A DNA stretch of 64,000 nt, taken from positions 1 to 64,000 of the forward strand of contig DASSPH010000057.1 of assembly GCA_035699745.1 (NCBI GenBank), written 5' to 3'. A model generated the notes under the pieces. That model made no database searches, was not told the DNA's origin, and worked only from the letters and a program-made list of their open reading frames with translations. A program made the translations under genes and the position numbers. This stretch comes from Vicinamibacterales bacterium. GTDB lineage: Bacteria > Acidobacteriota > Vicinamibacteria > Vicinamibacterales > 2-12-FULL-66-21. Below are positions 3,360 through 30,622 of this stretch, one piece after another (position 1 is the stretch's first letter; every line of letters begins with the position of its first letter).

Positions 3360-3433
3360 TGGGACGTCGTTCAACGGTAGGACACCGCGCTCTGGACGCG
3401 GTTATTGGGGTTCGAATCCCTACGTCCCAGCCA
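3360..3433 (+). tRNA. tRNA-Gln (anticodon CUG)
   Basis: The cloverleaf can be drawn by hand. The acceptor stem TGGGACG/CGTCCCA (3360-3366 with 3423-3429) is followed by discriminator G and an encoded CCA (3431-3433). The anticodon arm CCGCG-CTCTGGA-CGCGG carries CUG, and the T arm is TGGGG-TTCGAAT-CCCTA. The last 21 bases (3413-3433) are repeated exactly at 3527-3547, on the far side of a hairpin repeat, so the gene stays intact but looks like an integration target. Confidence 0.93.
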
Positions 3434-3547
3434 TCCGCCTCCGCTCGCGCACGATTCAGGCGAGCTACGGCGGGATGGCTCACCGACACGCTGAGATCCC
3501 GCCGCAGCGCGGAGCGCGAAGGCGGACGAATCCCTACGTCCCAGCCA
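3434..3547 (+). repeat. Palindromic repeat copy 1, at the tRNA-Gln 3' end
   Basis: A 93-bp imperfect palindrome (3434-3526) is followed by an exact 21-bp copy (3527-3547) of the tRNA 3' end. The outer arms are TCCGCCT (3434-3440) and AGGCGGA (3520-3526). The inner stem pairs GGCGGGAT (3469-3476) with ATCCCGCC (3496-3503), and CTCA (3479-3482) with TGAG (3492-3495), leaving a two-base GG bulge and a nine-base loop. The same element recurs near 9.5, 10.75, 12.4 and 15.2 kb. No transposase or integrase gene adjoins it. Confidence 0.85.
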
Positions 3548-3800: not shown

Positions 3801-5699
3801 CTACCGACAAGCAAATTCGTCCCCGGTTGTGGGTTGGCAGAAGTCTGACCAGCCAAAAGCGCGCCAATACTCGACGAGTCCCAATGTACGGGCGAGATCC
3901 CTGAATGCCGGAAGCCCTCGGACGTCCCGAAACAGCGGCTGCCACAAGAGCGCTGGATGGCGCACGTGTGGAGCTGCGTCCGTCAAGAGGCGCAGCGATA
4001 GCTCCGGCTCGCGGTAGAAGGCGGCCCACTCAGCGAGCAGCGCCTTCTCATCCGCGCTCGCCGAAGACGCCAGAAGGCGAATGTCGGCCGCGGCCCCCGC
4101 CGGGGCATCTATGAACCGCAGCAGCCTGCGGCTCACGCGCGCGGTCAAAGACTCGTCCGGAATCGCGGCGAGGCGCATGCGAATCAGCGCCTGGTCGTCC
4201 TGATTGAGCGCCGCCACGAACCCGCCATCGAGCAGCTGTGTTTCGAGGCCCTCGAGCCTGAGACCGCGATCGATCTCGGCGAGCGCACCGGTGATATTCC
4301 TGTCGGCCAAGTGCGCCGCGCTCAGGAAGCCGGCAATGGCCGGCGCGAAGGGGTCCTGCGCCCGCGCCCGCTCGAGTGCAGGTATGGCTTCGCGCGTGCG
4401 ACCCACCGCCAGCAGAAGAACGCCCCGGGGACCCGATGCCCGATCGGCGAGTCCGTAACGCGCGGAGGACATCTGCAGCTCCTCGAACGCGCGCGCCGCT
4501 GATGCCCAATTCCGGCGCCTCGCCTCCACAATCCCGATTTCCTCCAGCACGTCGGGTGCATCGGGCGTCAGCGCTCTCGCCTGCGCGAGCGCTTCGGCGG
4601 CGTTCTTCCGCCATTCCTCCGCCCGCTCCGGAACGAGGAACATGCCGTTCTGATAGACCGAGCTCAAACGCGCCCAGGCGATCGCGAACGAAGGATCGAG
4701 CGCGACCGCCCGCTGGAGGTGCGCGACGGCGAGTGGAAAAGATTGGGGCTGCCAGTCGAGATTGCGCGCGCGCGCACGCAGGTACTCCTCGTAGGCGGCA
4801 ACATTGCGGGTCATGCCTGGCACGCGGCCGACGGCGCCGATCCCGAGCTTGACTTGCAGAGCATCCGCGACCGACCTGGCAATGTCATCCTGAATCACAA
4901 AGATGTCGTCGACCCGGCGCTCGTAGGTTTCTGACCAGAGACGGTCGCCGGTCCCTGCGCGACTCAACTGGACCGTGATGCGCACCTGATCCCCTGCCGT
5001 GCGCACGCTGCCCTGCAGCACGTGCTCCACGCCGAGCGCCTCGCCGACGGCACGCAGGTCCCCGCCCCTGTCCTTGAACCGGAACGACGACGTTCGTGAG
5101 GTGACGCGCAACTCACGCACACGTGACAGCGCATTCAGCGTTTCGACGGTGATCCCGTCGGCGAAGAACTCCCGCTCGGGATCCGACGACAGGTTGTCGA
5201 ACGGCAGCACGGCCACCGACTGGGTCGCGGGAGGCCGCACACTGTTGCGGAAGGTGAGTATCGCAGCGGCGCCGGCCGCGGCGACGCCAACCAGTGCAGC
5301 CACGGCCATCAACCAAGCGGGCGACCCGTGGAGAACGGGCGCTGTCGGAGCCGTGGGCGCGGCGGGGGTATCGGCATCCACACGCTCCACGGACGCCGTC
5401 AGGCGATAGCCCCGTTTGGGGATCGTCTCGATGTATCGCGTGCGCTTGTCGCCATTCCCGAGGGCCTGCCGCAGCTGCCCGATGGCGAGATACACCGACC
5501 CGTCGCCCACCGTGACGTCTTCCCAGACCGTCGTCATCAACGACTCGATGGAGACGACGGCACCGCCGGCCCGGGCCAGGGCGACCAGGACGTCCATGGC
5601 ACGCGGCTCGAGCCTAATCGAGCGCGAGTCGCACTCGATCAGGTTCTGGCTCGGTATGGCGGTCCAGGGCCCGATCCGGAAGCTCGGCGCGTCGTTCAC
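3801..5699 (-). CDS. Winged-helix (OmpR/CadC-type) regulator with TolB-like and TPR domains
   Basis: I chose the GTG at 5699 (632 aa) because GAGGA lies 7 bp upstream and the protein then begins directly at the DNA-binding domain; the frame stays open further upstream but would run into the divergent gene. The N-terminal ~100 residues are a CadC-type winged helix (LEPRAMDVLVALARAGG, then YIETIPKRGYRL). A single membrane helix (AWLMAVAALVGVAAAG) follows near residue 135. Then comes a TolB-like/FlgO-like segment (SVAVLPFDNLSSDPEREFFA) and a C-terminal TPR array. The layout suggests a membrane-tethered one-component transcription regulator. Its signal and targets cannot be read from the sequence; the divergently transcribed NTF2-like gene is a possible target. 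Confidence 0.85.
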   Translation of the reverse strand: MNDAPSFRIGPWTAIPSQNLIECDSRSIRLEPRAMDVLVALARAGGAVVSIESLMTTVWEDVTVGDGSVYLAIGQLRQALGNGDKRTRYIETIPKRGYRLTASVERVDADTPAAPTAPTAPVLHGSPAWLMAVAALVGVAAAGAAAILTFRNSVRPPATQSVAVLPFDNLSSDPEREFFADGITVETLNALSRVRELRVTSRTSSFRFKDRGGDLRAVGEALGVEHVLQGSVRTAGDQVRITVQLSRAGTGDRLWSETYERRVDDIFVIQDDIARSVADALQVKLGIGAVGRVPGMTRNVAAYEEYLRARARNLDWQPQSFPLAVAHLQRAVALDPSFAIAWARLSSVYQNGMFLVPERAEEWRKNAAEALAQARALTPDAPDVLEEIGIVEARRRNWASAARAFEELQMSSARYGLADRASGPRGVLLLAVGRTREAIPALERARAQDPFAPAIAGFLSAAHLADRNITGALAEIDRGLRLEGLETQLLDGGFVAALNQDDQALIRMRLAAIPDESLTARVSRRLLRFIDAPAGAAADIRLLASSASADEKALLAEWAAFYREPELSLRLLTDAAPHVRHPALLWQPLFRDVRGLPAFRDLARTLGLVEYWRAFGWSDFCQPTTGDEFACR

Positions 5700-5886
5700 G
5701 TGATTCCTCAGGCGATCCTGCCACGAACCTAAGACGGTCCTAAGGACGGCGGACCGCTGCCGATTGTAACTTCGCGTGGCGCCGGAGCGGCATTGTGAGC
5801 CGCCGCGACTCATCGCGCTCGCTCGGCGCTCCCGACCAGCCGTCGGGACAATGTCACCGACTTGACAGATCCAAGGAGGGCTTCTG

Positions 5887-6339
5887 ATGCGACGCATTCT
5901 CTTCGTTGTGCTCTTGACCCTTGCAGCCTCCGCTCCAGCCGTTGGGCAGGCCAGCGCCGAACAGCAGATTCGGGATCTCGAGAAACAGTCTTTGGAGGCG
6001 GCCGAGCGCGGGACCGGACATGCGTTTGCCGAGCGCTACCTCGCCGACGATTTCCTCTTCACGGATCTGATGGGACGTGTCATGACCAAGGCGCAGATAC
6101 TGGCGAGGCCGAAATCCACCCCTGGCAAGGGGGCCGTGATGGAGGTTGACGATCAGCAGGTGCGGGTCTACGGCGATACGGCAGTAGTCACCGGACGCGT
6201 GACGTTTACGAGCGCAGACAATCCGAAGCCGGACAGCAGGCCCGCGGCCCGCTACACGCGGGTGTGGGTCCACCAGGGCGGCAGCTGGAAGCTGGTCGCC
6301 GAGCAGCTGACGCGGATCGCCGCGCCGGCGGTAGGCTGA
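5887..6339 (+). CDS. Secreted SnoaL/NTF2-like (DUF4440-type) protein
   Basis: This 150-residue protein starts at ATG 5887 behind a strong AAGGAGG site. It opens with a Sec signal peptide (MRRILFVVLLTLAASAPAVG, cleavage probably before QASAEQ). The mature part has the cone-fold pattern of DUF4440 proteins: an N-terminal helix LEKQSLEAAERG, FAERYLADDFLFTD, and a C-terminal strand YTRVWVHQGGSWKLV. Such domains act as small enzymes or ligand-binding proteins and no catalytic residue can be assigned. It is divergent from the winged-helix/TPR regulator across a 187-bp spacer that probably holds both promoters. A left-module repeat begins about 55 bp after its stop. Confidence 0.85.
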   Translation: MRRILFVVLLTLAASAPAVGQASAEQQIRDLEKQSLEAAERGTGHAFAERYLADDFLFTDLMGRVMTKAQILARPKSTPGKGAVMEVDDQQVRVYGDTAVVTGRVTFTSADNPKPDSRPAARYTRVWVHQGGSWKLVAEQLTRIAAPAVG

Positions 6340-6394
6340 CCTGGATGCGGCGGAGGCTTTCGGCTCTCGAGGCGATCATGCGGCGCGTACGAGC

Positions 6395-6426
6395 CGGGTC
6401 CGGAAATCGTCCCGAACACCCAGCCA
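6395..6426 (+). repeat. Left-module fragment of the dispersed repeat
   Basis: GGAAATCGTCCCGAACACCC and the following CAGCCA match the left arm found before the palindromic core at 9.5, 10.7 and 15.2 kb. Here the core is absent. The upstream ATGCGGCGCG also resembles the left flank of other copies. Confidence 0.7.
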
Positions 6427-6621
6427 ACTTCTATTTCACACAACAATGACTGCGCCGCGCGCATTTGCCGGTGTGTCGAACACCGTCATCGATGTCCCCT
6501 TGACGGCGGACACGCGCTCGGTCCTTCCAACCTAAACTCTGCGAAGAACCAGCCTGGCGATGGAATGGGAGCTGCGTTCCGTAAGTGGACGCTGCGCGGG
6601 CGATGCATTACCCTGCCCACC

Positions 6622-7734
6622 ATGCGCGAGACCACACGACGCGTCTTCCTCCACCGTAGCGGACGTGTCGCGCTCGGCAGCGCGCTGTTGTGGCAGTCCA
6701 AAAGCCTCTCGACGCAGCTGACCGGCGACTCGGCCTGGAACGCGCTGATCGCGGGCCTCGAAGCGCAGATTCCTTCGCTGATGACGGAACTCCTGGTGCC
6801 CGGCGTATCGGTGGTGCTGATTCGTGACGGCGCCATCGCGTGGCAACGCGCTTTTGGCGTGACCGACGCCTCGATGAAGCGGCCCGTCGATAGCGACACG
6901 ATCTTCGAAGCGGCGTCGATGAGCAAACCGGTCTTCGCTTATGCAGTGCTGAAGCTGTGCGAGAAGAAGGTGCTCGCTCTCGACACACCGCTGGTCGCCT
7001 ACGGGGGGCCGCCGTTTCTCGAAGGCGATCCGCGCATCAAGTCGATCACCGCTCGCCACGTCCTCTCACACTCGACCGGTTTCCAGAACTGGCGTTCGGA
7101 TTCGGAGCCGCTCCGCATCCATTTCACGCCGGGCACGCAGTATCGATATTCGGGCGAGGGCTTCGCGTGGCTGCAGTCGGTCGTCAGCCACGTCACCCAA
7201 CAGCCCATCGAGCCGTTCATGAAGGCAAACTTGCTCGAGCCGTTCGGTATGACAACGAGCGGCTATGTCTGGAACGAGACCTTCGCGGCGCGCGCCGCGC
7301 GCCCGCACGATGCCAAAGGACGGCCAGAGGACAATCGGAAGCGCACTGCCGCCGACGTGGCGCGCTACGCCGCGGCCGGCGATCTCGAGGCCACGCCCAC
7401 GGAATACGCGAAGTTCCTGCTCGAGGTAATCGCGCCGAAGCCGCCCGATGAGTATCGGCTCACCGCCGCGTCCCTGAAGGAGATGTGTCGACCGCATGTG
7501 AAGGAGCCGAACGCGTGGGGCGCCCGCGGCCTTGGATGGCAGCTCGTTCACGCCGACAAGGGGGACGTCATTCAACACGGCGGCGACAATCCCGGCTTCC
7601 ACGCGTTTGCCGTCGGCTCCGTCGAACGCCGGTGTGGCGCGGTGGTCATGACCAACGGCGAAAATGGCGCGACCCTGATCGGCCGATTCCTGAGCGACGT
7701 CGTAGACCGGCTGCACGTCGCTTCGAGACACTAG
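6622..7734 (+). CDS. Class C beta-lactamase-like serine hydrolase
   Basis: The start is placed at ATG 6622 (370 aa), where the protein opens with a Tat-like leader (TTRRVFLHRSGR). The fold is that of penicillin-binding protein/class C beta-lactamase enzymes. The SxxK nucleophile motif is SMSK (Ser about 99), a YSG at RYSGEGFAW stands where YxN is expected, and HGG in VIQHGGDNPG replaces KTG. Members of this group (EstB, D-aminopeptidase and Pab87-like enzymes) act on esters, peptides or peptidoglycan fragments in the periplasm; the substrate here is not predictable. It stands alone between two degraded stretches of repeat and insertion-sequence remnant. Confidence 0.88.
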   Translation: MRETTRRVFLHRSGRVALGSALLWQSKSLSTQLTGDSAWNALIAGLEAQIPSLMTELLVPGVSVVLIRDGAIAWQRAFGVTDASMKRPVDSDTIFEAASMSKPVFAYAVLKLCEKKVLALDTPLVAYGGPPFLEGDPRIKSITARHVLSHSTGFQNWRSDSEPLRIHFTPGTQYRYSGEGFAWLQSVVSHVTQQPIEPFMKANLLEPFGMTTSGYVWNETFAARAARPHDAKGRPEDNRKRTAADVARYAAAGDLEATPTEYAKFLLEVIAPKPPDEYRLTAASLKEMCRPHVKEPNAWGARGLGWQLVHADKGDVIQHGGDNPGFHAFAVGSVERRCGAVVMTNGENGATLIGRFLSDVVDRLHVASRH

Positions 7735-7959: not shown

Positions 7960-9417
7960 TCAAGGCTTCCACAGCGAATACATCAACTCGACATCGAGCT
8001 TGGCCGTGCGCAGGATCTGCCGAACAGTGTCCTGCCCTATGTGTGGTGCGAGTCGACTCGGCTGATTGGCGATCGTGTACGTTGTCATCGCGACGACTGC
8101 GCCGCCCGCCCGGAACGAGGTCGCGTCGACTTTGTCGAACGTGTCGCTTGCCTGATGGTGCACTTGTCGATACTGGGTGGTGTCCACCCACAGCTTCAAC
8201 GCCGGGATTCCTTCAAGCAGGAACGGACATTCATCCGACCCGCAGCTCGCGTCCATCGATAACCCGTCGGCACGCAGATCGCGTAAACGTGCCGAAATCG
8301 GGCGCATCGCCGCGCGCAGATCGTTTCGCCCGTTCACATACCAGCCGCGTGGCCGTCCGGCGCCGTTATCGGTGTTCAGCACGGCGATACAATTCTGCAA
8401 ATCGTTTGCATGCCGCTTGATGAACATCGCCGAACCGGGCGGGCCCGGCTCCTCAGCGGCCCAGAGCGCGAATCGAATCGAGCGCCGCGGCGGTTTGTCG
8501 AGTGACGCGATCGCACGCGCCGCCTCGAGGACCATTACCACGCCCGTGCCGTTGTCCTGCGCGCCGGTCCCGAGATCCCACGAATCGAGGTGGGCACCCA
8601 AAAGGACCCACTCGTGAGGCAGCTCGCGACCGGTGATCTCTGCGACGAGGTTGCTTACCTGGGTCGGCCCTGACACCTCGTTCCGCCATTCCGCTTCAAT
8701 GGTGACAGGCCCACGGGCGAGGTGACGACGAAGCAGCAGGTTGTCTTCGAGTCCGATGTCCCCGACTGGCAGCGGGAGGACTGTGCCTCGCGCATTGCCA
8801 GTGTCTACCCAACCAGCGACGTTGTTCGCCACTCTGTGGGGCAACAGAACCGCTTGCGCGCCAAGATCCTTGAGCAGCGCATACGCATTGCGAAGGCGTG
8901 CGAATGCGAGGGGCTGATCGGACGGCAGGGCCTTCTCGAGATCGACGAGAACGATTCGATGCTTCAGTTGCGCTGACTGCGATCGAATCGTCGCTGCCGA
9001 AAGATCGGAAACCAGAATCACGTCGCCGCGAATGCCGCCGGGTGGAGTCGATGGTCCCCAACCGACGGATCCGATTCTCAGCGCGCGTTCGACTGGCGCG
9101 ATGAGTCGAGCTCGCGCGGACCCACGTTGCCAGGTATCGGGCAAAGTGAATTCCTCGAAGCGAATGTTGGTAAGTCCGGCTTCGCGGAGCCTCGTCGCGG
9201 CCCATTGCGCGGCTCGGTCGTATGCCGGAGATCCGACTAGACGCGCGCCGATGTCGTCCGTCAACTCGCGAAGCAGTTCCATGGACTGGCCACGCAGAAC
9301 GGTCGACGAGATTCGATTCAGATCGTTCGGGGGATTGACGGTCTGCTGTCCGCGCACCAAAGCGGCCGCGACTGCCGCGAGGACCAGCGCGTGCGTGAGA
9401 CCAGATCTGCTCGACAT
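7960..9417 (-). CDS. Secreted M28-family metallopeptidase (aminopeptidase)
   Basis: The 485-residue protein starts at ATG 9417 with a signal peptide (LVLAAVAAALVRGQQ). Residues ~45-110 form the usual N-terminal part (GARLVGSPAYDRAAQW), then a PA-like insert, then the M28 catalytic domain. Zinc-site residues are visible: His and Asp in LGAHLDSWDLGTGAQDNGTG, the Glu pair in WAAEEPGPPGS, Asp in VLNTDNGAG, and His in VHHQASDTFDK. This full set suggests an active di-zinc exopeptidase that releases N-terminal amino acids outside the cytoplasm. It points toward the IS110 remnant, and a full copy of the palindromic repeat lies just upstream of its start. Confidence 0.9.
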   Translation of the reverse strand: MSSRSGLTHALVLAAVAAALVRGQQTVNPPNDLNRISSTVLRGQSMELLRELTDDIGARLVGSPAYDRAAQWAATRLREAGLTNIRFEEFTLPDTWQRGSARARLIAPVERALRIGSVGWGPSTPPGGIRGDVILVSDLSAATIRSQSAQLKHRIVLVDLEKALPSDQPLAFARLRNAYALLKDLGAQAVLLPHRVANNVAGWVDTGNARGTVLPLPVGDIGLEDNLLLRRHLARGPVTIEAEWRNEVSGPTQVSNLVAEITGRELPHEWVLLGAHLDSWDLGTGAQDNGTGVVMVLEAARAIASLDKPPRRSIRFALWAAEEPGPPGSAMFIKRHANDLQNCIAVLNTDNGAGRPRGWYVNGRNDLRAAMRPISARLRDLRADGLSMDASCGSDECPFLLEGIPALKLWVDTTQYRQVHHQASDTFDKVDATSFRAGGAVVAMTTYTIANQPSRLAPHIGQDTVRQILRTAKLDVELMYSLWKP

Positions 9418-9486
9418 TGCAGCGTTTCGACGCCAACAGGGTAGGCGGCCTTGAGAGAGAACTCAAACATCATGCGGCACGGATGA

Positions 9487-9624
9487 GCCAGTTGCGGAAA
9501 TCGTCCCGAACAGCCAGCCATCCGCCTCCGCTCGCGCACGATTCAGGCGAGCTACGGCGGGATGGCTCACCGACACGCTGAGATCCCGCCGCAGCGCGGA
9601 GCGCGAAGGCGGACGAATCCCTGC
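9487..9624 (+). repeat. Palindromic repeat copy 2 (left module plus core)
   Basis: The left module (from 9487, CCAGTTGCGGAAATCGTC) ends in CAGCCA at 9520. The 93-bp core (9521-9613) matches copy 1 base for base by eye. It is followed by CGAATCCCTGCG and then diverges, so the tRNA-like right end is cut short. It lies in the space between the M28 peptidase start and the next plus-strand gene. Confidence 0.85.
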
Positions 9625-9698
9625 GGGTTCGTCGAAGCGCTCGCGGCAATTCGTTTGGAGGGGTCGCTCTATCGGCCCAGACGTCGGGCCCGCCCGTC

Positions 9699-10287: not shown

Positions 10288-10671
10288 ATGACGCGATCCT
10301 GCGGGTGGTCGGTCGCAGTAGCGGCCGTACTGTCGGTTTTGGCGCCGAACATCGCGGCGGCACAGCTGATGTCAACGTGCGCCCCGGACTCACCCGAGAG
10401 GCGCGGTCAGATAGGCTCGCTTCCACATCATCATTCCGGTGTCGAAGCCGTCTACGTGCTCGAGGGCGAAGCGTGCTACGAGACACCGACTCGCGCCGCC
10501 AAGCTGCAGAAGGGGGAAACGCTCGCCCTGCCCGGCGGCACGCCCATGCGGGCCGTGGTCACCGGATCAGCGCGTCGCCATGTGTTGGCCGTCATCGTTC
10601 ATGACGCAGCCCAGCCTGCCACCATGAGGATGGAAGAGGGTACCGGTCCCAAGCTTGCCGCGTGCAAGTAG
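10288..10671 (+). CDS. Small secreted cupin-domain protein
   Basis: The 127-residue protein starts at ATG 10288, 8 bp after GGAGG, so this start is well supported. It has a signal peptide (SVAVAAVLSVLAPNIAAA). The single cupin barrel shows HHHSGVEAVYVLEGEACYET, then KGETLALPGGTP and RRHVLAVIVHDAAQP. The first motif carries the likely metal-binding His residues and Glu. Cupins of this type bind a metal or small ligand; no enzyme activity can be named. A short decayed copy of its 3' end lies at 32961-33043. A repeat copy begins about 50 bp after the stop. Confidence 0.8.
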   Translation: MTRSCGWSVAVAAVLSVLAPNIAAAQLMSTCAPDSPERRGQIGSLPHHHSGVEAVYVLEGEACYETPTRAAKLQKGETLALPGGTPMRAVVTGSARRHVLAVIVHDAAQPATMRMEEGTGPKLAACK

Positions 10672-10723
10672 CAGTGGGCGAGGCACACCAACACTCTGTC
10701 AAGCCTCACGCAGCCGTGACCAA

Positions 10724-10839
10724 CCAGTTGCGGAGATCGTCCCGCACACCCAGCCAATCCGCCTCCGCTCGCGCACGATTCAGGCGAGCTACGGCGGGAT
10801 GGCTCACCGACACGCTGAGATCCCGCCGCAGCGCGGAGC
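10724..10839 (+). repeat. Palindromic repeat copy 3 (left module plus partial core)
   Basis: The left module starts at 10724 (CCAGTTGCGGAGATCGTC) and ends CAGCCA. The core begins at 10758 and matches copy 1 up to GCGCGGAGC at 10839, then diverges, so the outer right arm is lost. About 35 bp further on, AGTTCGAATCCCA (10875-10887) is a tRNA T-arm-like sequence. The repeat fills most of the 350-bp gap before the MBL gene. Confidence 0.8.
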
Positions 10840-11022
10840 CTCCACCTCCTCGAGATCTTCGTCGGGATCGGCGAAGTTCGAATCCCAGGCAGCTCCTGCC
10901 TCGGGTACAGCTCTGCTCCCCGGCGAATCAGCCGTCTGATTTGCGTCATGGACTGCGGTAGCCTACGTGATGAACGGAGGACGCGCGACGCTCGCGTGCT
11001 GATAACCAAGGAGACAAGCTTC

Positions 11023-11952
11023 ATGACGAGCCCGCTCAGCCGAAGAGAGTTTTTCGCCGGCGTGGGCATGTTTGCCGCGGCCGCCCGCTCCGTCGTGGGA
11101 CAGAGCCGGCGCACCAGGCTCGTGCTGCTTGGGACAGGAGGCGGGCCGCGGCCCCGAACGGCGAATTCCGCTTCCGCGCAGGTGATCGTCAGCAACGGCG
11201 CGGCCTACGTGATTGATTGCGGCGATGGCGTGGCCCGGCAGATGGCCTTTGCGGGCGTGCCGCTGGCATCGCTGCGCCACGTGTTCATCACGCACCAACA
11301 TTCCGATCACACCGCCGACTACGGCAATCTGATCTGGCTCGCGTGGACGGCCGGACTGAGCTCGCGCGTCGATACGTGGGGACCGCCGCCGCTCGAGCGC
11401 ATGACCAGACTGTTCCTCGAGATGAACCAGTCCGACATCGAGATCCGGATCGCCAACGAGGGCCGTGTGCCGCTCGCGCCGCTCGTGCGCGTGCACGAAG
11501 TGCGTCAAGGCGGCCCAGTCATGGCGGACGACAATCTCAGGGTCACCGCAACGCTCGTGGATCATCCACCGGTCGTGCCGGCCTTCGCCTACCGCTTCGA
11601 CGCCGCCGATCGCTCGATCGTGATCTCGGGCGACACGGCACCGTCGCAGAGCCTGGTGAAGCTCGCCGCCGGCGCGGACGTCCTGGTCCACTCCGTCATG
11701 TATCCGCCGGCCATCGACCGGCTCGTCGCCCGCATACCAAATGCGGCGGCGCTGAAGGCGAGCATCCTCGCGCATCAGACATCGGCGGAAGACGCGGGCC
11801 GTATCGCACAGGACGCTGGCGTGAAGACACTGGTCCTCTCGCATTTCGTACCGCCCGACGATGCCGCCGTGACCGACGCGATGTGGCTCGAGGCCGCTCG
11901 GCGCCACTTCCGGGGTACCGTGATCGTCGGGCGAGACCTGCTGGAGCTCTGA
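11023..11952 (+). CDS. MBL-fold metallohydrolase with Tat leader
   Basis: I place the start at ATG 11023 (309 aa), which has AAGGAG upstream and gives a twin-arginine leader (LSRREFFAGVGMFAAAARS). The metallo-beta-lactamase fold shows the zinc-binding HxHxDH as THQHSDH, the strand VIDCGDG, a third His in TLVDHPPV, the Asp in VISGDTAPS and the last His in LVLSHFVPP. This layout is closest to the RNase Z/arylsulfatase-like branch of the superfamily. The Tat leader argues for export and against RNA processing. It stands alone, preceded by repeat copy 3. Confidence 0.88.
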   Translation: MTSPLSRREFFAGVGMFAAAARSVVGQSRRTRLVLLGTGGGPRPRTANSASAQVIVSNGAAYVIDCGDGVARQMAFAGVPLASLRHVFITHQHSDHTADYGNLIWLAWTAGLSSRVDTWGPPPLERMTRLFLEMNQSDIEIRIANEGRVPLAPLVRVHEVRQGGPVMADDNLRVTATLVDHPPVVPAFAYRFDAADRSIVISGDTAPSQSLVKLAAGADVLVHSVMYPPAIDRLVARIPNAAALKASILAHQTSAEDAGRIAQDAGVKTLVLSHFVPPDDAAVTDAMWLEAARRHFRGTVIVGRDLLEL

Positions 11953-12309: not shown

Positions 12310-12392
12310 TCGTCAACCTCCTGAACCAATTGACGCAGTCTACACAACAGCCCGGGCGACGAACTCAGCGGCGATCACGCAGCATGGTTGCG

Positions 12393-12500
12393 CCAGTTGC
12401 GGAAATCCTCCCGAACATCCAGCAGCTCATCAGATGACAATCTACGTTCCAGTACTTTGCTCGGGGCCGCAGCGCGGAGCGCGAAGGCGGACGAATCCCG
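12393..12500 (+). repeat. Palindromic repeat copy 4 (core largely replaced)
   Basis: The left module (12393-12424) is followed by about 40 bp of unrelated DNA and then by the right arm only (GCCGCAGCGCGGAGCGCG from 12466, AAGGCGGACGAATCCC to about 12499). The AGCTCATCAG after the left module also follows copy 5 at 15.29 kb. This looks like a rearranged or internally deleted copy. Confidence 0.7.
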
Positions 12501-12600
12501 ACGTCCTTGCGACAATTTCCCAACGCTTTGAATCGAAGCGACGACAAACGTTGCGTTCAATGGCGCCGCACGTTACGAGTCGAGTGCCGCCGCACCGGCC

Positions 12601-14136
12601 TCACTTCGCGGCATTGGCCGCAAGCCGCACGTCGTCGTGTGTGAAAACCGCAAAAACGAACGGCTGTGATTCGAGAACGCGCGCCAGATCGCGCAGCGTC
12701 AGATGAAGGGCCGACAGCCGGTTCTCATCGACGAACATCTGGCTGTTCTCCGGTTCGAAGGATGTAATCAGCTGCTTCGCCTCAGGATCAAACCTTTCGT
12801 GCAACAGATCTACGATCGACTGCGCAAAGTGTCGACGGTCCGGCGACGAGGGTTGCGACGGCATGCCATGGTCCGCGGTCACCGCGAGAAGATAGTCGTT
12901 GCCAACCTTCGCCTCCAGCGCCCGCAGCATTCGCGTTAAGTGGCGGTCCATCTCGCCGAGGGTGACGCGGAGCTCGCTCGAATCCGGACCGTACTTGTGG
13001 CCCACGAAATCGGCCCCCTTGTAGTTGAGCAGAATGAGATCCGCGACGTTGTCTGCGCCCACCGGCTCGCGCTCAATCATCGTCGTCATCGCATCGGCTT
13101 CGAATGCCGGAAACAGGGCCGAATAGCGCACAGCGGCGGCCGAGTCGATTCTGTGACTCATCCACTCCCCGTCGGCCCGCCACAGTGCGCTCGCATTTCG
13201 ATCCTTCAGGTACGCAGGCAGCCGGAAGCAATTGGGGTTCGTGGTCCAGTTGCCCGTCTGTTGATCGTAGCTTGCGAGCAGCACTGGCGTTCCATTCAAC
13301 TGACACGCTCCGTGACCCGCAAGCGGCGTCGCCGCTCGGTCGATGCTGCCCTGGGCCAGTACGATCGCGCGGCCAGCCGTCTCGAGCTGCCAGACGTCTG
13401 CCAGCGTCAGTGCCACCAGATCGTGCGGCACTCCTCCCGCGAACAGGTCGTGGCGCCGTCCGTGAGTGCGATCGTACACGCTTACGCCGGTGATTCCGTG
13501 CACGCGAGGATCGGCGCCCGTCGAGATCGTCGAGTGCCCCATTGCGGTGTTGGAGGGCAGAACGTTCAGCCGCGCCTGAGTGAACCAGGCACTCTGCTGA
13601 CGCAGAGCGGTCAGGGTTGGCATGGACGCGGCGTAGCGATCGAAGTAATCGCGCCGCATGCCATCCAGGACGAGCAGCATCACCACTCGCGGTCGAGCGC
13701 CCGCCCGCAGAACCGGCAATATGCGGCCCGTCGTTGACGGGGGCATCTGTACGCCAAGCGACGCCGCAAGCGTGGGCGCCACGTCCTGCTGCGCGGCTGG
13801 GACTGAGAACACGCCGGTTTTCACCGCAGGGCCCGCAAACATCAGCGGAATCGAGACGTCATAGGACCAGGGGGACCCGTGCATGTACTCGAAATTCGGG
13901 TCAGCCCGTGTGATGAAGTCCCCTTCACGCGGGACGATCAGGAGTTGGCCCGTTCGGCCTGGAAAATAGGCCCGTGCGAACATTGCCAGGAAGCGCTGTC
14001 GCGTTGCGGGATCGGGTGGCGACTGCTTGACCTGCTCGCCCGAAACCGTCCACGTGATCGCGACCAGACCCAGGGCGAGGATAATGGCACCGTAGCGGGG
14101 CAACTTTGAGAGGACTAAGGTCCGCCACCTCGTCAT
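12601..14136 (-). CDS. Alkaline-phosphatase-superfamily phosphodiesterase/phosphatase, apparently permuted
   Basis: The 511-residue protein starts at ATG 14136 behind GGAG. It has an N-terminal membrane anchor or signal (GAIILALGLVAITWTVSG). The metal-site motifs are present: Asp in LDGMRRDYF, the nucleophile region LPSNTAMGHSTISTGADPRV, KGADFVGHKYGPDS and TADHGMP. Residues ~55-140 (GRTGQLLIVPREGDF, YMHGSPWSYDVSIPLMFAGP, DVAPTLAASLGV, TGRILP) look like the segment that normally closes PafA-type enzymes at the C-terminus. Here it precedes the catalytic core, so the order seems circularly permuted. Substrate unknown; probably periplasmic hydrolysis of phosphate esters. Repeat sequence flanks both sides. 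Confidence 0.82.
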   Translation of the reverse strand: MTRWRTLVLSKLPRYGAIILALGLVAITWTVSGEQVKQSPPDPATRQRFLAMFARAYFPGRTGQLLIVPREGDFITRADPNFEYMHGSPWSYDVSIPLMFAGPAVKTGVFSVPAAQQDVAPTLAASLGVQMPPSTTGRILPVLRAGARPRVVMLLVLDGMRRDYFDRYAASMPTLTALRQQSAWFTQARLNVLPSNTAMGHSTISTGADPRVHGITGVSVYDRTHGRRHDLFAGGVPHDLVALTLADVWQLETAGRAIVLAQGSIDRAATPLAGHGACQLNGTPVLLASYDQQTGNWTTNPNCFRLPAYLKDRNASALWRADGEWMSHRIDSAAAVRYSALFPAFEADAMTTMIEREPVGADNVADLILLNYKGADFVGHKYGPDSSELRVTLGEMDRHLTRMLRALEAKVGNDYLLAVTADHGMPSQPSSPDRRHFAQSIVDLLHERFDPEAKQLITSFEPENSQMFVDENRLSALHLTLRDLARVLESQPFVFAVFTHDDVRLAANAAK

Positions 14137-14309
14137 GCTGGCTCCATCGCTTCACACCGGATGATCGTACTGGGCCCGCGAAGACACGAACTGCTCGTGC
14201 GATTATCGTCTGCGATTGGGCTGTTCGCTGCTCTAAAGTTGTTGATGCCAGTGGGCGCGAGCTGGTGAGCCTGATCCGAGACGAACCAGCTCACGCAGCG
14301 TTTTGGACG

Positions 14310-14415
14310 AACCAGGTTCGAAAATCGTCCCCGCCAGCACTTTTCAAGTCGATCGCGCCGCTTCAGCTTCAACGATATCAATCGGTTGGAGTAAATCGGC
14401 TCGGTTCGAATCCCA
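14310..14415 (+). repeat. Divergent repeat relic with tRNA T-arm-like ends
   Basis: ACCAGGTTCGAAAATCGTCC (14310-14329) resembles the left module of the dispersed repeat. CGGTTCGAATCCCA (14402-14415) resembles a tRNA T arm. The palindromic core is missing. It occupies most of the gap between the divergent phosphatase gene and the next pseudogene. Confidence 0.45.
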
Positions 14416-14447: not shown

Positions 14448-15165
14448 TTGAACACGCGTGCGAGAACTTGCGGTGATGCCAGACATCGGTGGCACGCGCG
14501 AGGTTCTCACGAGCCGGCCAGCGGTTCGCGTCGTCGCCGCCGTGATCTGATCGTTCGGCTGATCCGCGATCCTCGATTTGCCGATGCGGCACCCACCACC
14601 GTCGTTGAATGGGCGAACGCGCTCCATCAGGACTCGATTGATCGGTACGTGGCTGGCGAGGACGAGTCGAAGGCACTTGTGAGCCGCGCGTGGCGCAACA
14701 CGGGGTTCTCCCCGCTCGCCCCATGGGACGCGCCGGTGTACGAACGGTTCTTCGATGTCGTCAGGGACGTCAAAGGCGCGGCCGACGGAGCGCCGGCTTC
14801 GGGTTGTCGCCGCGGATCTCCCGGTGGACTGGAGCGGCACGCGTCAGGAGATCGAGGCGACCAAACAGCGCTTTCCACGCGATGTACATTTCTTTGAGAT
14901 CATCGATCGCGAAGTGATCGCCAAGCGCCAGAAGGCGCTATTGATCTTCGGCGGAAACCACCTGTACCGGCATTGGTGGAATCCCTTCGCGAACGGGTCG
15001 ACGCCGCCAAACCTGATCGACCTTCTCGAACAGAAGGCTCGAGGAGCGGTGCTCGTCGTCATGGTGCATGCGTTCGTCGAGCGAGATGTTGACCTTGAAA
15101 GTCGGCTCAAGGCGTGGAAGGCACCGGCGATGGCGAAGCTGGAAGGGACCAGTTGCGGAAACCGT
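14448..15165 (+). pseudogene. Frameshifted hypothetical gene, C-terminus cut by a repeat
   Basis: The first frame carries LIVRLIRDPRFADAAPTTVV, EWANALHQDSIDRYVAGED and APVYERFFDVVRDVK. Near 14770 the coding pattern moves to the next frame, which continues ERRLRVVAADLPVDW, HFFEIIDREVIAKRQKALL and IFGGNHLYRHWWN. Together they resemble a ~300-residue secreted hypothetical family that I know from acidobacterial genomes but cannot name. The N-terminus has no signal peptide or good start. The last natural residues (AKLEGT) run straight into repeat copy 5. One frameshift, a degraded 5' end and a replaced 3' end mark it as dead. Confidence 0.65.
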
Positions 15166-15292
15166 CCCGAACACCCAGCCATCCGCCTCCGCTCGCGCAC
15201 GATTCAGGCGAGCTACGGCGGAATGGCTCACCGACACGATGAGATCCCGCCGAAGCGCGGTGCGAAGGCGGACGAATCCCTGCGTTCCAGCC
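15149..15292 (+). repeat. Palindromic repeat copy 5 (left module, core and right end)
   Basis: This is the most complete dispersed copy. The left module starts at 15149, a 91-bp core (15182-15272) matches copy 1 with a few changes and a 2-bp deletion, and the right end reads CGAATCCCTGCGTTCCAGCC up to 15292. The inner arm change (GGCGGAAT) weakens one base pair of the hairpin. The copy forms the 3' end of the frameshifted pseudogene. The remaining ~300 bp before the dioxygenase hold nothing I recognise. Confidence 0.85.
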
Positions 15293-15597
15293 AGCTCATC
15301 AGTAGTTCCCGCTCGTTGCCACACCTCTCAATCCGGCCCGAGGACCAGACCGTGGATGCTCATGGCTGTTCCCGCAGGACAGTTTCCGCCGAGACACGCG
15401 CTGATTCCGGGCGTCGCTCCAACTGCTGATCGCGTGAGCACCGCGCGAGGGGTTGACACATCCGGGAACGCGGAATGGCCCGTGTCCGCCGGCAAAATCG
15501 GGCCCGTCGGGCAGTGTCGAATTCGCTGTAGGATGTCGCCCGAATACGAGAGGAACCGCGCCTCGAAAACGAGCTTGAGAAAAGGCAAGGATGACGT

Positions 15598-29632: not shown

Positions 29633-30622
29633 ATGAGTCGGCCCCTGGCGGCGTGGACCCCACGCAGGACGTTGTTTGTCGGTCCGGCGGCGCTGCTGAT
29701 CGCGACCCTCCACGCGGTCGATCCCGGCAAGCCATCGGTGTCGGCGCTCGAAGTGACGGCATATCGTGCGATCGGCGCCAAGCACCCCGACCCGGCGATC
29801 CGCAACGGCGACACGCTCGCGGAACGCTTTCTCGGTGCTGAAGAGCGGGACATCCTCCGCAAGGCCAAATCGGACCTCGTGCTGAACGCGCTGGCGTTGG
29901 ACACCGAGCGCGCATGGGCGAGCCTGGGCATCCGGCGGGGCTTCGCGCAGGCGGTGCACGTGCGCACCCGCCACATCGACGCAATGTTCGAGGAAAGCCT
30001 CGCGCTGGGTGCGACGCAGGTGGTCATCCTGGGCGCCGGGCTGGACAGCCGGCCGTACAGGTACGGGACGCGCCTCGCGGCGGCGCGCGTCTTCGAGGTC
30101 GATTTTCCCCCCACGCAGGAGTACAAGAAGAAGCGCGTCAGGGAAGTCGTCGGCTCCCTGCCGTCCCACGTTCGATACGTGCCCATCGACTTCACCAAGG
30201 ACGATCTCAGGACGGTACTCGAGGCCGCCGGATACGACCGTGGCAGGAAGACAATCTTCATCTGGGAAGGTGTGACGTTCTACATCCCCGAGGCAGCCGT
30301 GGATGCGACGCTCAGATTCGTGGCGCAACATTCGGCTCCGGGCAGCAGAATCGTCTTCGACTATTTTCTCGCGAGCACGCTGACGTCGCCGCACGCAACC
30401 TTGAAAGACGTCATGAGCCGCCTCGAGGCTGTGAAGGAGCCCATCATCTTCGGGCTGCCGGACGAAGACCGGCAGGGCTTCGTCACGAAGCGCGGGCTCG
30501 CGATTGTGTCGGACGTTCACATGAGCGAGTTGCGCGCTCGATACCTGCCACCGGCCGAAGCGGGAGCCTTGCCGGAGCTCGCGAAGGCGGGCAGCTATAT
30601 CTGCACTGCTGCCGTTCGATAG
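29633..30622 (+). CDS. SAM-dependent methyltransferase, TIGR00027/LCM type
   Basis: The 329-residue protein starts at ATG 29633 behind GGGAGG. It has the leucine-carboxyl-methyltransferase/PPM fold: residues RTRHIDAMFEESLALGATQV, then VILGAGLDSRPYR (SAM-binding motif I), VFEVDFPPTQEYKKKRV (acidic motif), and IFIWEGVTFYIPEAAVDATL. An N-terminal hydrophobic stretch (LFVGPAALLIATLHAVD) may be a membrane anchor. Relatives methylate carboxylates or hydroxyls of small molecules and polyketides in actinobacteria; the substrate here is not shown. It is a single gene. Confidence 0.85.
   Translation: MSRPLAAWTPRRTLFVGPAALLIATLHAVDPGKPSVSALEVTAYRAIGAKHPDPAIRNGDTLAERFLGAEERDILRKAKSDLVLNALALDTERAWASLGIRRGFAQAVHVRTRHIDAMFEESLALGATQVVILGAGLDSRPYRYGTRLAAARVFEVDFPPTQEYKKKRVREVVGSLPSHVRYVPIDFTKDDLRTVLEAAGYDRGRKTIFIWEGVTFYIPEAAVDATLRFVAQHSAPGSRIVFDYFLASTLTSPHATLKDVMSRLEAVKEPIIFGLPDEDRQGFVTKRGLAIVSDVHMSELRARYLPPAEAGALPELAKAGSYICTAAVR

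Follow-up and report, generated by a model that had tools for sequence, protein, structure and literature searches.

In the window, by which we mean the whole stretch of 64,000 nucleotides analysed here from a Vicinamibacterales bacterium (the source genome), the tRNA-Gln gene with the anticodon CTG was found to be followed by a gene-less block of 93 bp and by an exact second copy of the last 21 nucleotides of the tRNA. The block is read here as a non-autonomous mobile DNA which duplicates the 21-nt tRNA end, and serine-recombinase elements as integrating at such tails; this joint reading is given a probability of about 0.55. In bacteria, mobile DNA lands at tRNA genes more often than at any other kind of site. 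If the reading is true, a gene-less block which copies the landing site, found at 7 of the 41 tRNA genes of one related genome (G046), would be a new way in which such hot spots arise and are perhaps protected, and cassette-like arrays would be explained without an integron.

The tRNA-Gln locus and its 93-bp block

The tail of tRNA-Gln and its copy (Table 1) were found to be identical at 21 of 21 nucleotides. The duplication is far beyond chance, a 20-mer of the tail with up to three mismatches matching the window three times and 100 shuffles not once. The block between the two tails contained the termini TCCGCC at the start and GGCGGA at the end (type A) and forms an imperfect palindrome, whose folding as ssDNA beats all 200 dinucleotide shuffles on both strands (z of -3.33 on the plus strand and -5.01 on the minus strand). 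No gene and no Rfam family was found within the 93 bp, the Rfam match at the locus being that of the tRNA alone. The preliminary description, made from the letters of this DNA, had named the exact repeat of the tRNA end, the imperfect palindrome and the gene-less spacer of about 93 bp, and all of them were recovered; a core belonging to a conserved RNA gene, which it had named as an outcome that would refute its reading, found no match among the known RNA families (Rfam). The locus itself therefore stood, but it opens a series of seven related junctions between 3.4 and 15.3 kb, and the hairpin is also present at tRNA-Ser(GGA), both of which had been missed.

The flanks of tRNA-Gln(CTG) in this and the related genomes were found to contain a near tail copy in 2 of 24 distinct cases (the source genome and G046), and the remaining 22 contained no copy at 15 or more of the 21 positions; the flanks of G027 and G037 look like decayed cases. 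The tRNA-Gln of G011 was identical over 74/74 bases and was not followed by the block, so that the other refuting outcome named in the preliminary description, core and duplicated end at every tRNA-Gln orthologue, did not occur. The G011 locus counts as an empty tRNA and not as a proven syntenic empty site: a search for synteny on the far side of the array found no flanking genes in common with the relatives, so that the empty site rests on the tRNA and the array end at 15293 is unproven. The tRNA-Gln loci of several relatives (L041, L042, L043, L044 and L045) contained 44-nt copies from the anticodon loop, some of them only 2-5 kb apart; these represent a second kind of integration at that tRNA, an anticodon-loop type.

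Table 1. Features of the tRNA-Gln locus and of the array that follows it in the window (recombinase gene ends are predicted)
Feature	Position	Strand	Basis
tRNA-Gln (anticodon CTG), CCA encoded	3360..3433	+	ARAGORN; Rfam RF00005 58.1 bits
Tail 1, tRNA nt 56-76 (T-loop C56 to CCA), duplicated target	3413..3433	+	
Hairpin block, 93 bp, type A (TCCGCC...GGCGGA)	3434..3526	+	
Tail 2, exact copy of tail 1	3527..3547	+	
Cargo 1: winged-helix (Trans_reg_C) + TPR protein	3801..5897	-	Pfam
Cargo 1: DUF4440/SnoaL-like protein	5887..6339	+	Pfam
Junction 2: predicted serine-recombinase gene 3′ end (WLGVRDDFRTRLVRAA-stop), attR-like	6369..6426	-	
Cargo 2: beta-lactamase-family serine hydrolase	6565..7734	+	Pfam
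Cargo 2: M28 peptidase	7960..9417	-	Pfam
Junction 3: predicted recombinase gene 3′ end (WLAVRDDFRNWLIRAA-stop)	9463..9520	-	
Junction 3: hairpin block	9521..9613	+	
Junction 3: decayed tail copy (CGAATCCCTGCG)	9614..9625	+	
Cargo 3: cupin protein	10288..10671	+	Pfam
Junction 4: predicted recombinase gene 3′ end (WLGVRDDLRNWLVTAA-stop)	10699..10756	-	
Junction 4: hairpin block, right end truncated	10757..10839	+	
Cargo 4: metallo-beta-lactamase-fold hydrolase	10948..11952	+	Pfam
Junction 5: predicted, decayed recombinase gene 3′ end (..REDFRNWRNHAA-stop)	12368..12425	-	
Junction 5: hairpin block right half + decayed tail copy	12466..12512	+	
Cargo 5: phosphodiesterase/nucleotide pyrophosphatase-family protein	12601..14136	-	Pfam
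Junction 6: predicted, decayed recombinase gene 3′ end (..DDFRTWFVQNAA-stop)	14305..14338	-	
Junction 7: predicted recombinase gene 3′ end (WLGVRDGFRNW.., stop lost)	15124..15181	-	
Junction 7: hairpin block	15182..15272	+	
Junction 7: tail copy, 19/21	15273..15293	+	

Tail copies and related blocks at other tRNA genes

The survey of tRNA 3′ flanks covered 43 tRNA matches of the source genome and those of the relatives G008 (45), G046 (41) and G047 (34). The flanks were taken as far as the contigs of these fragmented genomes allowed; the 155 that reached 130 nt or more were tested, seven shorter ones (one of the source genome and six of G047) were left out, and the tail copy was searched between +60 and +100 after the CCA. 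An exact copy of tRNA nt 56-76 was found in 9 of the 155 flanks with a spacer of 76-93 bp, the tail-swapped control giving an expectation of 0.01. The tRNAs concerned were of the types Gln, Ser, Lys, Arg, Ala, Leu and Glu, with the copies located at Gln (+93) and Ser-GGA (+91) in the source genome and at Lys-CTT (+76), Arg-ACG (+79), Ala-GGC (+79), Leu-GAG (+80), Ser-CGA (+76), Gln (+84) and Glu (+81) in G046. As the three relatives were picked for a case already known in each, the survey is unbiased over tRNAs and biased over genomes, and the counts of 2/42 (source genome), 7/41 (G046), 0/45 (G008) and 0/27 (G047) are unrepresentative as per-genome frequencies. Partial copies (15-18/21) were found at four more flanks, namely G046 Arg-TCG (17), G046 Ser-TGA (15), G008 Ser-TGA (18) and G047 Ser-TGA (15), of which the two at 15/21 are not significant alone because the swapped-tail control expects 2.6 at 15 or more. 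The spacer was found to be 67-94 bp in all 13 tRNA cases, with the boundaries fixed at tRNA position 55/56 and at the CCA. The tRNA-Ala(CGC) of G047 (contig C33, L316) contained a plain tandem duplication of its own 37-nt 3′ part, unlike the block insertions.

The block behind tRNA-Ser(GGA) of the source genome was found to be 81% identical to the tRNA-Gln block, and the tail duplicated there was that of tRNA-Ser (21/21). A type A block was also found behind tRNA-Ser(TGA) of G008, followed by the 18/21 copy, and all five long type A copies of the source genome stand behind a tRNA or a tRNA-like GCCA end. The local alignment of block pairs gave z values against dinucleotide shuffles of 20.7 for Gln/Ser of the source genome and, in G046, of 10.8 for Ala/Gln, 6.3 for Arg/Leu, 6.2 for Gln/Arg-TCG and 5.5 for Ser/Glu; z was at least 4 in 13 of the 105 pairs among 15 blocks (the 13 survey cases and the two decayed tRNA-Gln cases of G027 and G037). 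A central TTCAGGC, a motif picked after the data had been seen, was present in 5 of 13 blocks vs 2 of 143 other flanks. The word hairpin is apt for type A alone, because the G046 blocks contained no clear terminal inverted repeats and those of Ala, Gln, Arg-TCG and Glu fold no better than shuffles. In a GTDB-based genome collection, the exact pattern of tail, type A block and tail was found on one contig, MELC01000042.1 (Acidobacteria bacterium RIFCSPLOWO2_12_FULL_66_21).

The local origin of the tails was visible on contig C59 of G008 (L038), where a displaced and mutated tRNA fragment (TTCGAATCCCTGCCTCACCGCCA), in which ARAGORN found no tRNA gene, was followed by a type A block and by an exact 21-nt copy of the mutated version; the copy was therefore made from local DNA. 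Blocks which spread among tRNAs while the tails stay local look like the agents of a target duplication, and the combination is hard to obtain from collapsed islands or from purely local duplication. The evidence lies closest to one of the two guesses of the preliminary description, a mobile hairpin using the tRNA end as its target, which is supported in that several tRNAs of one genome are followed by related spacers, with the local tail duplicated in each case. The other guess, the relic of a larger island that collapsed, fits less well and is weakened by a spacer of 67-94 bp with the same boundary in every tRNA case.

Ordinary site-specific integration, in which tail, block and tail would form a mini-element or collapsed island of a T-loop-type tyrosine integrase and the copy would come from the attachment site of the element, is the likeliest of the alternatives and is itself considered unlikely. 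Identity from the T-loop to the CCA is the classical trace of integrases, as established knowledge and the Islander work have it, tyrosine recombinase genes were found in 60/60 genomes, and several copied tails adjoin integrated elements. An integrase footprint is not expected to have so constant a length (13/13 cases), to show one block at different tRNAs with the tails switched each time, or to duplicate a mutated local tail unchanged as on contig C59 of G008, and the block holds neither an integrase nor any other gene; PF00589 gave seven matches in the source genome, none of them on contig C57.

Replication template switching, by which a folded-back tRNA end would be copied first inverted and then direct so that the spacer and tail 2 arise locally, is decidedly improbable as a general account. 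Across the CCA, 6 of 13 duplicated loci vs 6 of 131 other flanks contained the tRNA end in inverted copy, with a stem of at least 7 nt (13 nt at G046 Glu and 12 nt at G046 Ser), so that some blocks may still have arisen by template switching. Local events would not be expected to give related blocks at different tRNAs, however, and the type A blocks at Gln and Ser are alike though their tails differ; 5 of the 13 loci contained no such stem.

Hairpin-like arms of the CCTTCGCTC type were found within 20 nt of the CCA in 14 of 42 source flanks and 20 of 113 related flanks, and in none of two control placements, an indication that such sequences favour tRNA ends more generally, whether a duplication is present or not. 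Most of the 14 arm-bearing tRNAs of the source genome contained no copied tail, and the arms therefore do not account for the tail duplication. A third alternative, in which the block would be a repeat of the REP/REPIN type or would form a trailer structure in the tRNA transcript and tail 2 would be a chance by-product, is very improbable: the arms and the CTAC of the plus strand (GTAG on the other strand), which we take to resemble REPs, speak for it, but the Y1 transposases have no hairpin copies around them, arm-bearing flanks mostly lack the tail copy, and 5/5 long type A copies of the source genome stand behind a tRNA or tRNA-like GCCA and are not dispersed like REPs. A REPIN/RAYT origin was rejected, none of the three Y1_Tnp loci of the source genome being flanked by the block, as was a phage or viral source of the block, with 0 matches in viral contigs.

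The array and the end of a predicted large serine recombinase gene

The seven related junctions consisted of the tRNA-Gln locus followed by six others, 0.8-3.1 kb apart. The block or the tail was found again at 9.5, 10.7, 12.4 and 15.2 kb, and a second repeat of about 58 bp, which ends at the same ...GCCA positions, was found there and also at 6.4 kb and, decayed, at 14.3 kb. The repeating order was tail, cargo, predicted recombinase-gene end, block and tail. The cargo between the junctions was found to consist of unrelated ordinary genes in both orientations, one of them encoding an unknown protein; no recombinase was found among them and no remnant of a large serine recombinase (LSR) beyond the tail motif, and contig C57 gave no match to PF00589 (tyrosine recombinase) or PF07508. 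A lone hairpin of similar sequence (GCCGAAGC...GCGAAGGCGGGC) was located at 30545-30600 of the window, away from any tRNA.

The 20-nt core of the 58-bp repeat with up to two mismatches was found in 23 of 60 genomes, the backwards-read pattern giving two matches in all. The opposite strand of the copies spells W-L-x-x-x-D-D-F-R-N-W-L-I/V-x-A-A-stop. A stop at codon 17 or 18 was found in 21 of 29 distinct copies, those not starting with TGG (Trp) being excluded from the count and codons 6-11 belonging to the search pattern and so forming no evidence, and the conservation ends at the stop. The variation at the two Ala codons was 0.78 and 0.68 at position 3 vs 0.31-0.51 at positions 1 and 2. The motif is coding, because the third positions of the Ala codons vary most and 21 of 29 copies stop at codon 17 or 18; the ending ..AA-stop was kept in five of the six window copies.

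In G038, the scar tail was preceded by KPFDLLVCGNEAED and the reading ended in ..KPFDLLVCGNEAEDWLGVSDAFRNWVMANVA-stop, which was aligned to ..KPFDLLVDGNETGNWLGGRDSNP.. of a G008 recombinase (PF00239, PF07508, PF13408); the latter contained KPFDLLVDGNETGN, after which its residues come from the antisense strand of tRNA-Gln. The gene behind the 58-bp repeat is, by these predicted products, a large serine recombinase, and the window repeats are the scars of integrated elements: the 3′ end of an LSR gene is found at the scar, and an LSR gene was not found in the array units. Recombinase genes that run into an antisense tRNA were found repeatedly in these genomes, at Met, Glu, Lys, Ala and Gln, and the only PF07508 gene of the source genome (contig C74, L166 5592-5667) runs into antisense tRNA-Ala(GGC) and ends 35 nt inside it. 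The origin of the scar tail AGTGCGGCGAGCCA as a tRNA end was rejected, the pattern TCCAGTGCGGCGAGCC being found in 9 of 60 genomes at ten places, of which seven are scar loci, one is a further scar and the other two are L212 and L215; AGTGCGGCGAGCCA is probably a native variant of the recombinase gene end. The scar peptide gave weak, probably unrelated matches alone by tblastn in phages and plasmids.

In its predicted free form, the serine recombinase carries a C-terminal -AA (RAA, SAA, HAA or EAA), like a degradation tag, and integration would swap in codons of the antisense tRNA; the endings were read at window positions 6369-6426, 9463-9520, 10699-10756, 12368-12425 and 14305-14338 and at the motif loci of other genomes. 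The swap is possibly an integration-dependent stability switch. A serine-recombinase gene that exchanges its last codons on integration would be a second, separate candidate switch.

Blocks and recombinase elements were found combined in G046, where tRNA-Gln was followed by the block, tail 2, a recombinase gene, about 17 kb, a recombinase-gene end, a block and a tail. A serine recombinase gene also starts behind tail 2 at Glu and Ala of G046 (at Ala the zinc-ribbon domain alone is visible before the contig ends), so that a copied tail is abutted by a recombinase gene in three cases. At tRNA-Ala of the source genome the recombinase gene lies directly at the tRNA, without a block, and the block is therefore separate from the recombinase element. 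Recombinase elements appear to use the copied tail instead of the tRNA, and larger mobile elements seem to land on copied tails. At G008 Ser-TGA the copied tail adjoins an ordinary VWA-domain gene, and an inserted element is therefore not required. The cargo of the G046 tRNA-Gln recombinase element was found to contain a SMODS-type nucleotidyltransferase, of a defence-related family (L088:6616-7503, minus strand).

Proposed mechanism and comparison with known systems

In the proposed mechanism, the block would insert with the end of a tRNA gene (T-loop to CCA) as its target and with duplication of 21 nt of it, and would yield tRNA, block and a copy of nt 56-76; the transposing enzyme would presumably act in trans on the block. 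Independently, elements with a large serine recombinase gene would integrate at the tails. The 3′ end of this gene would span the attachment site of the element, so that integration would swap its last codons, while the original gene end would stay behind as a scar at the far end of the element. The tandem units 'tail - cargo - recombinase-gene end - hairpin - tail' of the window would have arisen as elements integrated time and again at tRNA-Gln and at copied tails, and all of these units would later have lost their recombinase genes. What the sequences show are duplications whose boundaries are fixed, related blocks at different tRNAs, coding scars and three recombinase genes at copied tails; that the block inserts in this way, and that recombinase elements land on copied tails, we infer. 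Against a mobile block stand the unusually long target duplication of 21 nt and the failure to find a transposase (Y1 transposases of the source genome; Cas1 in the source genome, G046 and G047). That gene-less mobile DNAs of 67-112 bp in the order hit tRNA ends of many specificities, duplicate the 21 nt C56-CCA every time and so create spare landing sites, where serine-recombinase elements integrate next to the tRNA instead of in it and build cassette-like arrays, is put forward tentatively, the odds being somewhat against so wide a statement. No descriptions of such blocks were found in the open-licence literature.

Non-autonomous MITE-like elements are short and gene-less, with inverted ends, several related copies and a direct target duplication. 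The block was found to resemble them in being short and gene-less, in the terminal inverted repeats of type A, and in several related copies, each with a target duplication. It differs in its restriction to tRNA ends, in the 21-nt length of the duplication, in the lack of clear inverted ends in the G046 blocks, and in that no partner transposase with the same ends was found around the Y1 transposases. Casposons insert at tRNA 3′ ends and make duplications of about 14-27 bp; the block differs from them in being gene-less, and a casposon origin was rejected, Cas1 giving 0 matches in the source genome, G046 and G047.

The tRNA-targeted genomic islands of Islander likewise have at their far side a displaced copy of the tRNA end, which was found here at 21/21; those islands encode an integrase, whereas the block is a gene-less 93 bp, no integrase gene was found inside the element, and the same block stands at several tRNAs. 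The REP/REPIN sequences with their RAYT transposase (PMC3733652) are alike in being palindromic, of similar length and with a GTAG-like tetranucleotide, whereas the block lies away from the Y1 transposases of the genome, carries a target duplication and is tied to tRNA ends. In mycobacteriophage BPs (PMC4557955), the attachment site lies in the 3′ part of a gene, and integration alters the C-terminus of the protein, a repressor whose free form has a short C-terminal tag, proven to be a degradation tag. By analogy with that system, the place of the repressor would be taken here by a serine recombinase, with -AA as its putative tag.
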